Origin: Clostridiales bacterium
GTDB lineage: Bacteria > Bacillota > Limnochordia > Darwinibacteriales > B1SED10-159
Assembly: GCA_003551965.1 (NCBI GenBank)
Contig: PUOC01000290.1
Coordinates: 1 to 49,817 of the forward strand
Length of the DNA stretch: 49,817 nucleotides
Direction: 5' to 3'
Part shown: one piece after another, positions 33,509-43,569 of the stretch
Position numbering within the stretch: the first letter of the stretch is position 1
How the letters are laid out: each line of letters opens with the position of its first letter
Program-made: the position numbers and the translations under genes
Notes under the pieces: model-generated
Database searches by the model: none
Seen by the model: the letters and a program-made list of their open reading frames with translations, nothing else
What the model was told of the DNA's origin: nothing

Positions 33509-34273
33509 CTATGTTCCTCCCCAGGCAGCCAGCAGGCCTAAGAACACTTCCATCAGGTAGCCGTCCCGGGCAAACAGAGAGGCCAGAAGATGCACATACA
33601 GAGGCATAACAAAAAAGACCATGACCATTCCAATGGTGATTTTGATGGGAAATCCGATCACAAAGACGTTGATCTGCGGCACTGTCCGGATGACCATGCC
33701 TAAGGCGACGTCCGTCAGTAAGATGGTGCCGGAAATAGGGATGGCAATCTGCAGTCCCAGGCGAAACACATTGCCTCCTAATTCAGTCATCAATGCTGCT
33801 GTGCTCTGCATTTCCAGCCACGAGGCAGCCGGTATGTAGTCATAGCTTCCCAAAAGCGCCTGCAGCAGCCACAGGTGGCCGTCCACGGCAAAGAACACGA
33901 GACTCGCCAGCAGGTGATAAAACTGGGAAAACAGCGGCAGTTGAGTACCAGTTGCCGGATCGAACACGGACACCAAGCCAAAACCCATGGGAACATCGAT
34001 TAACTGGCCTGCAAAATAGACCGCAGCAAAGGTGAGGATCACCACAAACCCAAGAATCAGACCTACGGCGAACTCCTGTAGAATGAGAATGGCCCATGGC
34101 CCAAACGTATCCACAGGAACCGGGACCGGTTCAGGAAATACCAGGAAGGCTAAGAGCGCCCCTAGCCCAGCCTTGACCATAAATGGCACTTGGCGGATGC
34201 TGAACACAGGCAGTAGAAATATAAAGGTGGTGAACCGGATGAATCCGGCCAGAAGCCCGCTGTATTCTTGCAT
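33509..34273 (-). CDS. fliR: Flagellar export gate protein FliR
   Basis: FliR joins FliP and FliQ in the core export gate. From ATG 34273 it is 254 residues, mostly membrane segments. It includes FTTFIFLLPVFSIRQVP and the long hydrophobic run GLILGFVVILTFAAVYFAG. It ends with FFVMPLYVHLLASLFARDG. AAGGAGG 6 bases before ATG 34273 fixes the start. The open frame continues upstream across fliQ but does not resemble FliR there. Confidence 0.95.
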   Translation of the reverse strand: MQEYSGLLAGFIRFTTFIFLLPVFSIRQVPFMVKAGLGALLAFLVFPEPVPVPVDTFGPWAILILQEFAVGLILGFVVILTFAAVYFAGQLIDVPMGFGLVSVFDPATGTQLPLFSQFYHLLASLVFFAVDGHLWLLQALLGSYDYIPAASWLEMQSTAALMTELGGNVFRLGLQIAIPISGTILLTDVALGMVIRTVPQINVFVIGFPIKITIGMVMVFFVMPLYVHLLASLFARDGYLMEVFLGLLAAWGGT

Positions 34274-34287
34274 GGGGGGCCTCCTTT

Positions 34288-34557
34288 TTATAAGACGTAA
34301 AGGTGCAGCTGACCTAAGAGGCGCTGGCCAAAGTCCAACAGCAGCCGCAGCATCCAAGGGCCGAAAATGACGATAGAACCCAGGACGGCGACAATTTTTG
34401 GAATGAATGTCAATGTTTGTTCCTGGATCTGCGTCGTGGCCTGGAAAATGCTCACAGACAATCCCACAATCATGCCCAGGCCCAATACAGGGCCGGCGGC
34501 CAGCAGGACTGTCAGCAGTGCTTCTCTGCCGAGATTTATCACCATGGTTTCGGTCAA
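34288..34557 (-). CDS. fliQ: Flagellar export gate protein FliQ
   Basis: FliQ is a two-helix membrane protein of the export gate, of 89 residues here. The signature LSVSIFQATTQIQEQTLTFI, then PKIVAV and FGPWMLRLLL, is intact. I choose TTG 34557 (MTETMVINLGREALL) because GGAGG lies 8 bases upstream and the length equals that of B. subtilis FliQ. A TTG at 34563 is too near that site. It is preceded by an unusually long 136-base gap after fliP. Confidence 0.94.
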   Translation of the reverse strand: MTETMVINLGREALLTVLLAAGPVLGLGMIVGLSVSIFQATTQIQEQTLTFIPKIVAVLGSIVIFGPWMLRLLLDFGQRLLGQLHLYVL

Positions 34558-34693
34558 TGCCAACGCCTCCCATCAAGACCAAGTTCGCGCAAGCGCACCA
34601 GTGGTTTATGCTAGAATGCCAATGCGGTGCCAAGGATTTTTCTAAGACGGGACCGGATCAACGATGCAGATAACACCCTTGGCCGCAGCCCTG
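34558..34693 (-). other. 136-base gene-free gap between fliP and fliQ
   Basis: This is the longest gap within the fliO-flhB run, where genes otherwise overlap or nearly touch. On the minus strand TTGGCA and CATAAA are 17 bases apart near its middle, a possible weak promoter. A GGGAGG ribosome binding site for fliQ lies at the end. I see no gene and no strong terminator in it. Confidence 0.35.
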
Positions 34694-35404
34694 TCAGAAG
34701 TAACTCATCAAAAGCGAACGGACCACCAAGTGCCAACCATCCACCAGCACAAAGAGCAGGATCTTAAACGGCAGCGATATCATCACCGGCGGCAGCATCA
34801 TCATGCCCATGGCCATGAGGGTACTGGCCACAATCATGTCAATGACAAGAAAAGGGACAAAAATCACAAAACCCAACTGGAAGGCAGTTTTTAACTCCGA
34901 AATGACAAAGGCCGGTATCAGTGTCAGTGTATCCACATCATCGCGAGCATCGGGAGGCTCGCCGCCCCGTGCCCCGATCAGCATTTCCAAGTCCCGTTCC
35001 CGCGTATGGGTGAACATGAACTCTCGGATAGGTTCCAATCCGGTCTCTAGGGCTGCTTCTGCCTCCAGTTCGCCGTCAACGAAAGGCACAATGGCATCCT
35101 CATACACCGTCCCGAAAACGGGAGCCATGACAAAGAAGGTCAAAAAGAGCGCTAGACCGATAATGACTTGGTTAGGAGGCATTTGATTGGTTGCCAAGGC
35201 ATTGCGGATAAACGACAAAACGATGACGCTCCTGGTAAAAGAGGTCATCAGAATAAGTATAGCTGGAGCCAAGGTCAGAATGGTCAGGAGGAACAGTATC
35301 TGCAGCGTTACCGCGACGTCGGCCGGCGATTCGGCGGCTCCAATGCCCAGGTCAATGCTGGGGATCGGCAGATTGGTCTGCAGCAGTATGCCGATAACTG
35401 TCAA
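34694..35404 (-). CDS. fliP: Flagellar export gate protein FliP
   Basis: FliP is the main pore-forming gate protein. The 236-residue protein has ILILMTSFTRSVIVLSFIRN, QMPPNQVIIGLALFLTFFVM, IREFMFTHTR, and the end FVISELKTAFQLGFVIFVPF plus MGMMMLPPVMISLPFKILLF. Like B. subtilis FliP it lacks a clear cleavable signal peptide. It has a short acidic, Gly/Pro-containing insertion (GARGGEPPDARDDVD) in the periplasmic loop. The TTG start at 35404 overlaps the fliO stop (TTGA), and AGGAGG is 7 bases upstream. Confidence 0.96.
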   Translation of the reverse strand: MTVIGILLQTNLPIPSIDLGIGAAESPADVAVTLQILFLLTILTLAPAILILMTSFTRSVIVLSFIRNALATNQMPPNQVIIGLALFLTFFVMAPVFGTVYEDAIVPFVDGELEAEAALETGLEPIREFMFTHTRERDLEMLIGARGGEPPDARDDVDTLTLIPAFVISELKTAFQLGFVIFVPFLVIDMIVASTLMAMGMMMLPPVMISLPFKILLFVLVDGWHLVVRSLLMSYF

Positions 35405-35676
35405 TGGCGCTCCTCCTCATCCGGTACAGGACGTGTATCCAGCAGCTGGATTGTCTGGTTGGTGAAGGCCAGAAAATACTGGTTCCCTTCCCATTCGATC
35501 ACATAGAGGGCTCTGCCCGTCCCCAGTGGAATTGTTTCTCGAATGGTTACCGACCGTCCGGTCAGCTGCCGGCCCGCATACCAGCGCGTTGTGAAATAGA
35601 TGGCGGGAGCTAAAGCGAGCAGAACCGCAAATACCCGTAGGAAAGACATCCAGATATCTATGTCCATTCCGTTCAT
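35401..35676 (-). CDS. fliO: FliO/FliZ-like flagellar biosynthesis protein
   Basis: A 91-residue protein with one N-terminal membrane segment (VFAVLLALAPAIYFTTRWY) and a small beta-rich cytosolic domain (RSVTIRETIPLGTGRALYVI, then GNQYFLAFTNQTIQLLD). This is the usual FliO/FliZ form, helping stabilise FliP during gate assembly. ATG 35676 has AGGGGG 8 bases upstream; a TTG at 35682 lies between. Its position directly before fliP supports the call. Sequence identity in this family is always low. Confidence 0.85.
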   Translation of the reverse strand: MNGMDIDIWMSFLRVFAVLLALAPAIYFTTRWYAGRQLTGRSVTIRETIPLGTGRALYVIEWEGNQYFLAFTNQTIQLLDTRPVPDEEERH

Positions 35677-35738
35677 CCACAAGGCCCCCTAGTCTTTCTT
35701 CGCCGTCCATGGTGCCCTTCCTGCGCCGGAATCGAAAT

Positions 35739-36674
35739 TCAGCGATGCCGAATCCGCTCTTCGGCGGGCACGATTTCCTGAATCCGGAGGCCGAAATTGT
35801 CATCAAGAACAATGACTTCGGCTTTGGCAATGGCGTATCCATTGATGAATAGATCGCAGGGCTGCCCGGCCATCTTGTCTAGCGCGATGACGCTGCCTGT
35901 CTCAAGCTCCATGATATCGCCTAACGTTATGTCCGCACTGCCGACTTCTGCTATAATCGGGAGTTTTACATCGTCTACCAAATCAATTTCCCGATCCTGT
36001 GCCGTGTCGCCGGACAATGTCAGTTCTCCAAAACTGGCGGGTTCAATGCTTACCTGCCTGTGATTGGCCCGCCGCCGGGTGCGATTGCTGGTGGGGGTCA
36101 GACGAGCAATTTCCCCTGTTCCTTGGGGCTGCTGTCCCTTGGTATCCTCGCCCATGTCCCTTCCCCCTTCCTCGACCTTTCCCTCCCACACCTGCCTAGG
36201 CAGGGCCAACCCGATAGACAAGTCACTGTGGCCCACAGTACTGGCAAACAGCAGCAGCTCCATATCGTCCCTGCAGCTGAACTTTTCCAATGCTTGACCA
36301 GAAGCGGTGGCCGGCTCGTACATCGTGCCCGAAAGGGGCTGGCCCCTTGTTGCAGATAAGGACTTCGCTGCGAACTGGGCCCATTCCCTGCCCACGATCT
36401 CCACAGCCCGGCTGGCTGTAACTCCCAGGACGACGCCCACGGACCGGGCTTCTTCCCTTGCGACGAAAATATGAAGGCGTGAACCATTGATGTCCATGGG
36501 TATTTCAAACAGCGAGGAGCCCAGGGCTTGCACGGCATCCTCATTCGTTGCGGGCCAGGGATCCTGGATGCGCACTGGCAGCTGCAGCAGTTTACTGAGA
36601 CGTTCGGCCAGTTTGTGCTTGCGAGAAGCGAACAAAGCGGCAGAAGAATGCTGGGATGGATTGTGCTCAGGCAA
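35739..36674 (-). CDS. fliN: FliN/FliY-type flagellar switch protein with degenerate CheC-like half
   Basis: A 311-residue protein from TTG 36674 (AAAGGAGG 7 bases upstream). The C-terminal 72 residues (about 230-301) are a clear FliN/SpoA domain: VDDVKLPIIAEVGSADITLG, ETGSVIALDKMAGQPCDLFI, NGYAIAKAEVIVLDDNFGLR. Residues about 14-160 resemble a CheC/FliM-middle fold in their order of paired helices and strands, as in FliY. The phosphatase pattern ExxN appears as ExxS (E24/S27) and ExxQ (E97/Q100), so CheY-P hydrolysis is unlikely. There is no N-terminal EIDALL-type CheY-binding peptide. A charged linker (165-228) joins the halves. It lies directly after fliL, where fliM would be expected. Confidence 0.85.
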   Translation of the reverse strand: MPEHNPSQHSSAALFASRKHKLAERLSKLLQLPVRIQDPWPATNEDAVQALGSSLFEIPMDINGSRLHIFVAREEARSVGVVLGVTASRAVEIVGREWAQFAAKSLSATRGQPLSGTMYEPATASGQALEKFSCRDDMELLLFASTVGHSDLSIGLALPRQVWEGKVEEGGRDMGEDTKGQQPQGTGEIARLTPTSNRTRRRANHRQVSIEPASFGELTLSGDTAQDREIDLVDDVKLPIIAEVGSADITLGDIMELETGSVIALDKMAGQPCDLFINGYAIAKAEVIVLDDNFGLRIQEIVPAEERIRHR

Positions 36675-36701
36675 TCGCGCTCCTCCTTTCTCCAACACTC
36701 C

Positions 36702-37184
36702 TTATTGCAGCACCAGGTCAATGAAATAAACGTCGACCACCTCACCGTGGATCAGGAGGTCGTTGATGGACGACACGATTTCTGTCCGCAGCGTCTCCAA
36801 ACCTTCGGTGCTGTCAATCTGGGCGGCGGTCTTCCCGCGCAGCAGCGTGATGATCCGGTCCCGCAGTTGCGGGTGCCTGTTTTCCAACTCCGAACGCAAG
36901 GAGCGATCATCGCTGATCTCCAGAACAATGCCGGTGCGGACAAAGCGGCTGCCGCGGGCATCGGAATTTTTGACGTTAACCGTGAACTCACCGACTTCAT
37001 AGACGGGACCCATAGATCGGGGTGTGTTGCCCTCTGTGTTACTGCCGCTGCCACTCCCGGCTAGTTCCGCTACGCCCCCTCCGAAGATCAGAAAGGTCGC
37101 AAAGGCACTGCCTACAGTGGCCAGTATAACCAGGGCCACGGCTACAATCAGCAGTTTGAAATCGACCTCTACTTTTCTGGCCAT
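36702..37184 (-). CDS. fliL: Flagellar basal body-associated protein FliL
   Basis: FliL surrounds the stator and raises motor torque. The 160-residue protein has a short cytoplasmic start, one membrane segment (LLIVAVALVILATVGSAFAT), a Gly/Ser/Asn linker and the periplasmic domain with VYEVGEFTVNVKNSDARG, ELENRHPQLRDRIITLLRGK and the ending VVDVYFIDLVLQ. CGGAGGG lies 8 bases before ATG 37184. It follows motB by 17 bases, an order common in Clostridia. Confidence 0.95.
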   Translation of the reverse strand: MARKVEVDFKLLIVAVALVILATVGSAFATFLIFGGGVAELAGSGSGSNTEGNTPRSMGPVYEVGEFTVNVKNSDARGSRFVRTGIVLEISDDRSLRSELENRHPQLRDRIITLLRGKTAAQIDSTEGLETLRTEIVSSINDLLIHGEVVDVYFIDLVLQ

Positions 37185-42996: not shown

Positions 42997-43569
42997 TTAT
43001 TGACGCCCCTCCGTCAGCTGCCGGCTGAGTTGTGCGGCCAGATCGGGGTCCAACTCCGCCATGATGGCCGAAGAACTCCTTGCATTCATGGCCCGCAGTA
43101 TGTTCAGGGCCACATCCAGATCCAACCGTTCAAAAATTGCTGCAGCCTCCGTCGGGCGCATCTCGGAGTACATGTCTGCTAAACGGGAGATGTTCTCTTC
43201 CTCCGCCTGCAGCCCTTTGACCTCCGCCCGCAGATGTTCGATTTCCTGCCGGCGATTTTCTAACTCTTGTTCCCGGCTGTCCAGAGCCGCAGAACGGTGG
43301 TCTAGTTCACGCTGTTGCTGGTCAAGCTCTTCCCTCACAGTCTCGAGGTCGTCCCACGCGGCAGCAAGTTTCTGCTCCTTGGCTTCCATGGCCGCTTCCA
43401 CGTCTTGGCCGCGTTCATAGGTGCGAAGGTATGCGGACCAGCGGGGATGGTCCTCGGCATAGGAAAGCACCCATGTTTGCGGATGGATTACATCCGTGAT
43501 TGTGAAGACGACCAATGCGGCCGCCAGTGCAGCAAAAAGGGCTAGAACAGCCAATACCCACTTCAGCAA
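42997..43569 (-). CDS. ylxF: YlxF/MotE-like membrane coiled-coil protein
   Basis: A 190-residue protein with one N-terminal membrane segment (WVLAVLALFAALAAALVVFT), a long coiled coil (about 55-130, Glu/Gln/Leu/Arg-rich) and a C-terminal MgtE-N/FliG-like helical domain with YSEMRPTEAAAIFERLDLDV and ALNILRAMNARSSSAIMAEL. This is the YlxF/MotE form found between fliJ and fliK. In other systems MotE-like proteins chaperone the stator. The role here is inferred. TTG 43569 has AGGAGG 7 bases upstream. Confidence 0.9.
   Translation of the reverse strand: MLKWVLAVLALFAALAAALVVFTITDVIHPQTWVLSYAEDHPRWSAYLRTYERGQDVEAAMEAKEQKLAAAWDDLETVREELDQQQRELDHRSAALDSREQELENRRQEIEHLRAEVKGLQAEEENISRLADMYSEMRPTEAAAIFERLDLDVALNILRAMNARSSSAIMAELDPDLAAQLSRQLTEGRQ

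Follow-up and report, generated by a model that had tools for sequence, protein, structure and literature searches.

The protein encoded between fliL and fliO in this flagellar cluster, which we call FliY', is in our reading the leftover of a fliM-fliY pair that was displaced from this slot, and would now be a non-catalytic structural subunit of the FliN type, an explanation to which we give a probability of roughly 0.7. The gene is real and well conserved, and the system to which it belongs combines known parts in an unusual way without being a new machine. Because a canonical FliM and a catalytic-type FliY are encoded in the same genome, FliY' is a third SpoA protein; our analysis points to a structural FliN-type subunit as its most likely identity and, judging from its residues, it is apparently an enzymatically dead relative of FliY.

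The open frame was confirmed, with a strong Shine-Dalgarno sequence (-11.9 kcal/mol) in front of its start codon, and an alternative GTG start at 36698 would give a protein of 319 aa (features are collected in Table 1). The gene sits inside a large flagellar cluster where Pfam names fliG, fliJ, a gene for a coiled-coil MgtE_N protein, fliK, flgD, flgE, motA, motB, fliL and fliO, along with ParA-type, PilZ and sigma-factor genes; further genes we take, from position and translation, to be fliF, fliH, fliI, fliP, fliQ, fliR, flhB, flhA and flhF. The coiled-coil protein with an MgtE_N-like end is encoded between fliJ and fliK (42997-43569, minus strand) and is possibly MotE/FliG-chaperone-like. 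The fliR open frame (33509-34633, minus strand) is listed from a TTG; its codon 121, an ATG near 34273 with a Shine-Dalgarno energy of -11.1, is likely the true start, as FliR-like sequence seems to begin there.

Table 1. Features of the window, that is, of the whole 49,817-nucleotide stretch of DNA that was analyzed.
Feature	Position	Strand	Detail or basis
Gene for third SpoA protein (FliY')	35739..36674	-	311 aa, TTG start
C-terminal FliN-type SpoA domain	35769..35981	-	PF01052; TIGR02480
Predicted N-terminal CheC/FliM-middle fold, residues 9-169	36168..36650	-	AlphaFold model and fold comparison
Internal ATG in frame (codon 174), candidate start for a FliN-like product of 138 aa	36153..36155	-	
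17-base purine run containing a Shine-Dalgarno core (36163-36170) at a spacing of 7 bases to the ATG	36157..36173	-	
fliL, conserved neighbor directly upstream of the FliY' gene	36702..37184	-	
fliO, conserved neighbor directly downstream of the FliY' gene	35401..35682	-	
fliG, sole FliG found in the genome	46083..47090	-	

The two halves of FliY'

A sequence-only reading of this DNA had described the N-terminal half as a degenerate CheC-type domain, and our data fit that description. In the AlphaFold model, block-mean pLDDT is at least 90 over residues 11-130 and 141-160 and 80 in the block 131-140; it is nearly everywhere below 50 over residues 170-234, and lies at 54-73 in the SpoA part, with 48 at the very end. 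The input alignment held the window protein and 14 proteins from named public contigs, four of which (L043, L055, L059, L052) are other FliY-like proteins that could lend their fold to the prediction. When the predicted model was compared with solved structures, residues 5-169 matched the CheC/FliM-middle/FliY fold, with VIA Z scores of 15.1 for the FliM middle domain of Helicobacter pylori (159 residues, 3.2 A), 14.2 for CheC of Thermotoga maritima (1xkr; 14.4 for the other CheC match) and 13.9 for T. maritima FliY. These matches span 152-165 residues and stand well above unrelated rows, Foldseek E values go down to 1.6e-10, and no unrelated fold was predicted for residues 14-160. The model thus predicts with high confidence that the N-terminal part of FliY' has the FliM-middle/CheC/FliY fold. 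An attempt to prove the CheC fold by sequence alone failed, as the profile match of the whole N half came mostly from peptide and linker: with these trimmed, comparison with the N half of canonical FliY gave 17.9 and 16.0 against shuffled maxima of 16.4 and 16.3, which is not significant, and comparison with the degenerate FliY set (24.0 against 12.9 shuffled) and with the pooled set (28.1 against 22.6) stayed above the shuffled scores, but weakly. Since sequence alone, once trimmed, shows no demonstrable match to canonical FliY, homology rests on the fold, on gene position and on the peptide found in relatives.

Both ExxN pairs of phosphatase-type FliY are missing from the window protein, whichever register is chosen. 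Counted by eye, 21 residues separate the catalytic E of FliY from the strand after its helix, and counting back 21 from the model strand that starts at 34 leads to A13/A16 as the first pair. The VIA alignments to CheC, which start with model residue 3 or 4 at chain residue 2 or 3, place it at 13-14, given the catalytic residue numbers of CheC. The first ExxN position thus falls at residues 13-16 (A..A) or 14-17. The earlier claim that the two pairs read ExxS and ExxQ holds as far as the loss of both is concerned, but its ExxS (E24-S27) lies in the next helix; the ExxQ (E97..Q100) is plausible as the second catalytic position, as it agrees with the same 21-residue count from the strand at 116-118, and the corresponding column reads E..N in 5 of 33 aligned orthologues. 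These five are the orthologues from genus g4 (L019, L021, L022, L023, L024), which at positions 13/16 have E..Q (L019, L023, L024), D..Q (L021) or Q..Q (L022); with E..N second pairs, and three E..Q first pairs, some activity is possible in the g4 proteins. The CheY-binding peptide of the EIDAL type, already reported as absent, is indeed missing here and present in 23 of the 27 uncut orthologues of the order (the 27 include the window gene; the full set of 33 also has 5 genes truncated at a contig end and 1 masked gene). The view of the protein as structural rather than catalytic also fits our data. The GGxG motif of FliM, which binds FliG and is present in 22 of 22 FliM proteins of the order, was sought in the window protein and is absent, and PF02154, the FliM middle domain, gave no match there up to an E value of 1.

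The C-terminal SpoA domain is the only Pfam domain above cut-off in the window protein (PF01052, 73.5 bits against 23.8). The protein also passes the FliN family TIGR02480 (86.9 bits against 84.05) and, in its 319-aa form, fails the FliY family NF005995 (93.2 bits against 218). With 311 aa and a folded N half, it does not have the shortness of a FliN that lacks a CheC-like half; FliN size is found only in its predicted 138-aa internal product, discussed below, and in three orthologues (L007, L008, L130).

FliM, FliY and FliY' across the order and the class

A second locus in the same genome, on contig C226, reads cheW-fliM-fliY-cheA-cheY-cheC-cheD-cheB-cheR, where the che names are those that we presume from the translations. 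Its FliM scores 278.4 bits on TIGR01397 (cut-off 219.6) and its FliY 366.3 bits on NF005995 (cut-off 218), the latter with both ExxN pairs, EIGN and EAMN. The closest relatives of both proteins by BLAST score come from two genomes of the same family, to which FliM is 78% and 75% and FliY 64% and 62% identical; contamination was rejected as the source of C226 because of this closeness, and because the third gene and fliM share one contig in 8 related genomes. Two flagellar systems in this genome are likewise not supported, since a single FliG was found, and one FliG probably means one flagellar motor.

Among the 36 genomes of the order, the third gene is present in 33, FliM in 31 and the FliG middle domain in 34, and SpoA matches number three in 28 genomes, two in 4, one in 3 and none in 1. 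The search for FliM in the 33 genomes with the third gene came back empty in 4 (G019, G021, G032, G035), all of them drafts, which could reflect assembly gaps or a real absence. The third gene has fliO downstream in 33 of 33 cases and fliL upstream in 27, with 5 of the other 6 cut by a contig end. The fliM-fliY loci read in the order adjoin cheA or cheW in 22 of 22 cases, and fliL or fliO in none of the 22; the first ExxN motif is found in 22/22 of these che-linked FliY (one reads EIGT) and EAMN in 21/22. The N half is kept by 24 of the 27 uncut third genes, and the orthologues that keep it, full-length or cut, are 23-29% identical to the window protein. The other three have just the FliN part: L007 and L008 (139 aa), from the family of the window, and L130, from a distant family. 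Their grouping as one clade is rejected (p-AU 0.0044) and the presence of the N half over the slot rows needs four changes, the best reading being that it was lost separately in at least two lineages of the order.

Our survey of the class took in 58 genomes at least 90% complete, in which 20 loci at the slot and 20 further loci were read. In families f6, f7, f8 and f16 the slot holds a fliM (GGPG) and a fliY that matches neither ExxN pattern (9/9 loci read). Beyond these two, no SpoA match was found in 8 of the 9 genomes, the exception being G038 with a weak third one (30.6 bits). In f7, f8 and f16 that fliY product (L161-L167) is the only FliY found in the genome, and the class may for this reason include motors without a FliY phosphatase. 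One genome assembled as a single contig of 3.8 Mb (G062) carries both such a slot pair between fliL and fliO and a pair linked to cheW/cheA (L168, L169). In f12 and f13 the slot on the fliO side has a fliY' with the peptide in 5/5 loci and a decayed FliM-like gene upstream of it in 4/5, and no fliL appears in the stretches that were read. The decayed FliM-like SpoA proteins (L150, L156, L157, L159) lack GGxG in the two f12 genes and have a GGxG-like string in the two f13 genes; a second fliM-fliY pair is also present in those f12/f13 genomes in which one was read (G053, G055, G057). In f9 and f10 the slot holds fliY' alone, without peptide, behind fliL (10/10), and in f11 and f14 a FliN-sized frame of 115-163 aa behind fliL (5/5). 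Outside the order, second-pair FliY proteins show the first ExxN pattern in 4/10 and EAMN in 8/10, and cheW or cheA lies beside 6/10 of these pairs; for the f11 and f13 second pairs, neither gene occurs within the 4 kb read, and these were placed in the che group with no adjoining che gene seen.

In a quick FliM tree (16 of 22 FliM of the order, 18 of 61 reference FliM), 26 second-pair FliM fall on one side of a branch, apart from slot FliM (SH-aLRT 86). In the SpoA tree, built on 103 columns from 19 of the 33 third proteins and 16 of the order's 22 che-linked FliY along with the other sets, second-pair FliY fall on one side (86/90), as do the slot proteins of the order (98/87); all 40 slot proteins taken together are not a single group (6 changes). 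The separation of second-pair from slot proteins of the order in these trees has modest support. The SpoA tree does not favor a recent duplication of the order's own che-linked FliY as the origin of FliY'. In the simplest history, the che-linked pair displaced the slot pair, and erosion then occurred repeatedly. A fliM-fliY pair would once have filled the fliL-fliO slot, with the FliY' gene as its surviving fliY member, and the second pair, between cheW and cheA, would now be the source of FliM and of FliY as CheY-P phosphatase. Of the slot pair, FliM would have disappeared, and FliY would have lost its CheY-binding peptide and its catalytic residues and kept its CheC-like fold and an intact FliN-type SpoA domain. 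The class, in fact, shows such steps side by side: full pair, non-catalytic FliY, peptide-less FliY, bare FliN and possibly a dual-product gene. A call of "missing FliM" made from one operon can mislead, since a working fliM-fliY pair may lie, as here, in another locus.

Proposed roles of the two halves and a candidate internal start

As a leftover subunit, FliY' would dimerize through its SpoA domain with FliM and FliY in the lower C-ring, where it would also help dock FliH, and its N half would be a dispensable, non-catalytic add-on; the direction of this history, the position in the ring and the docking of FliH are what we infer. In three close pairs from family f4, w is 0.04-0.06 for the SpoA half and 0.19-0.23 for the N half, with dS near saturation, and this stronger constraint on the SpoA half fits a structural FliN-type role. 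Beyond these pairs, w is 0.55-1.09 for the N half and 0.24-0.50 for the SpoA half in the 10 pairs of lowest dS, all of them saturated, and the N half of the window protein is too diverged from its best partner (L137; 10% identity, w 1.09, saturated) for constraint to be judged. The SpoA part looks like the essential part of the third protein, since three genomes of the order keep it without the N half, and FliY' seems to be turning into a simpler FliN.

It is rather unlikely, although worth weighing, that FliY' is more than a FliN because its N half has retained a separate, non-catalytic function, such as docking FlhG/FlhF or CheY or tuning the diameter of the ring. The N half folds confidently in the model, is still constrained in the three close pairs and is kept by most uncut genes of the order; in addition, the cluster contains a ParA-type gene resembling flhG, and FlhG is reported to act with FliY in Bacillus subtilis (PMC12327844). 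However, the N half is absent in two separate lineages of the order as well as in those f11 and f14 loci that were read, and the low identity between the window protein and the orthologues that keep the N half also argues against such a job.

The leftover gene might also give a second protein. With a Shine-Dalgarno energy of -11.4, the internal ATG at 36155 is the strongest among the 315 internal in-frame ATGs of the 43 window genes on our list and tied for first among all 897 internal in-frame starts, with the next internal ATG (in the fliR frame) at -11.1, and its purine run is one of two of at least 17 bases on the minus strand of the window. This energy is reached in 6670 of 20000 synonymous draws, so that the amino acids alone favor the signal. 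The ATG precedes the SpoA domain by 57 residues, as against 58 for the GTG starts of L007 and L008, and GGAAGGGGGA six bases before the start is common to L008 and the window. An internal start conserved across the family was not found: among the 24 uncut genes of the order that keep the N half, a Shine-Dalgarno energy of -9 or stronger occurs in the linker of the window's gene only, and such a signal is seen in 3 of the 25 remaining slot genes and in 1 of the 22 che-linked FliY, none at -11. Two products from one gene, the second a predicted 138-aa FliN read from this ATG, would be plausible. The broader proposal, in which the gene is midway from FliY to FliN and makes both FliY' (33.9 kDa) and the 138-aa FliN (15.1 kDa), with slot-pair replacement and erosion running in parallel across the class, we regard as tentative and somewhat improbable. 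If true, the ring would consist of FliM, catalytic FliY and two products of one leftover gene, and in the sister genus the front half would have been deleted up to the same start signal, so that the internal start became the only one.

We consider it very unlikely that the real gene starts at ATG 36155 and that its upstream half is no longer translated, as the strong Shine-Dalgarno sequence at this ATG and the same-family relatives that have this part alone would suggest, but the N half is open and models with high confidence, and the upstream TTG has the slightly stronger Shine-Dalgarno sequence. Hardly credible is the proposal of the sequence-only reading that FliY' is a FliM/FliN hybrid replacing both, its N half binding FliG and its SpoA domain forming the lower ring: the N half does match the FliM middle domain best (within a tie of CheC and FliY), the slot is the position of fliM-fliY in other families and 4 of the 33 genomes with the third gene yielded no FliM, but replacement is contradicted by the canonical FliM and ExxN-bearing FliY encoded in the same genome, by FliM in 29/33 of the genomes with the third protein, by the absence of GGxG and PF02154 matches and by the three genomes of the order that dispense with the N half.

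Comparison with known systems

FliN and FliY tend to be regarded as alternatives. Our literature search found no paper on the C-ring of Limnochordia, a class of Bacillota. The leftover subunit that we favor resembles the phosphatase FliY of the Bacillus type (NF005995) in its CheC fold followed by SpoA; Bacillus FliY also occupies the same operon slot. The window protein differs from it in having neither ExxN pairs nor the EIDAL peptide, and in its score far below that family's cut-off. As in FliN (TIGR02480), its SpoA domain passes the cut-off, but a CheC-like half of 170 residues stands in front.

The FliY of epsilonproteobacteria is similar in several respects. According to PMC6946799, FliY of Campylobacter jejuni and H. 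pylori has, like FliY', a SpoA domain and no phosphatase site, and coexists with FliM and another FliN. For H. pylori, PMC8809382 describes the C-terminal domain of FliY alone as restoring the C ring, so that the N half can be removed without ring loss, and its C-terminal half as binding FliM and FliN in FliH-associated complexes. On this precedent FliY' would serve as a structural subunit of the FliN type. In contrast to these proteins, the window protein scores 62.8 bits on NF006272 (cut-off 219), has as partner an ExxN-bearing FliY and not a FliN, and its gene sits alone between fliL and fliO.

With regard to a possible second product, SctQ/SctQ-C of injectisomes (Spa33) is another case where a single gene has been proposed to encode two SpoA products, one long and one short; Spa33, however, has two SpoA domains, as stated in PMC4832279, whereas the front half of the window protein is CheC-like and its short product is a prediction. 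The same paper indicates that T. maritima fliY seems to give a FliN-like product, FliN*, from an internal start behind a purine stretch. T. maritima FliY has the same domain order as FliY' and keeps EIGN and EAMN (4hyn); the window protein has neither motif and is a third SpoA protein in its genome.
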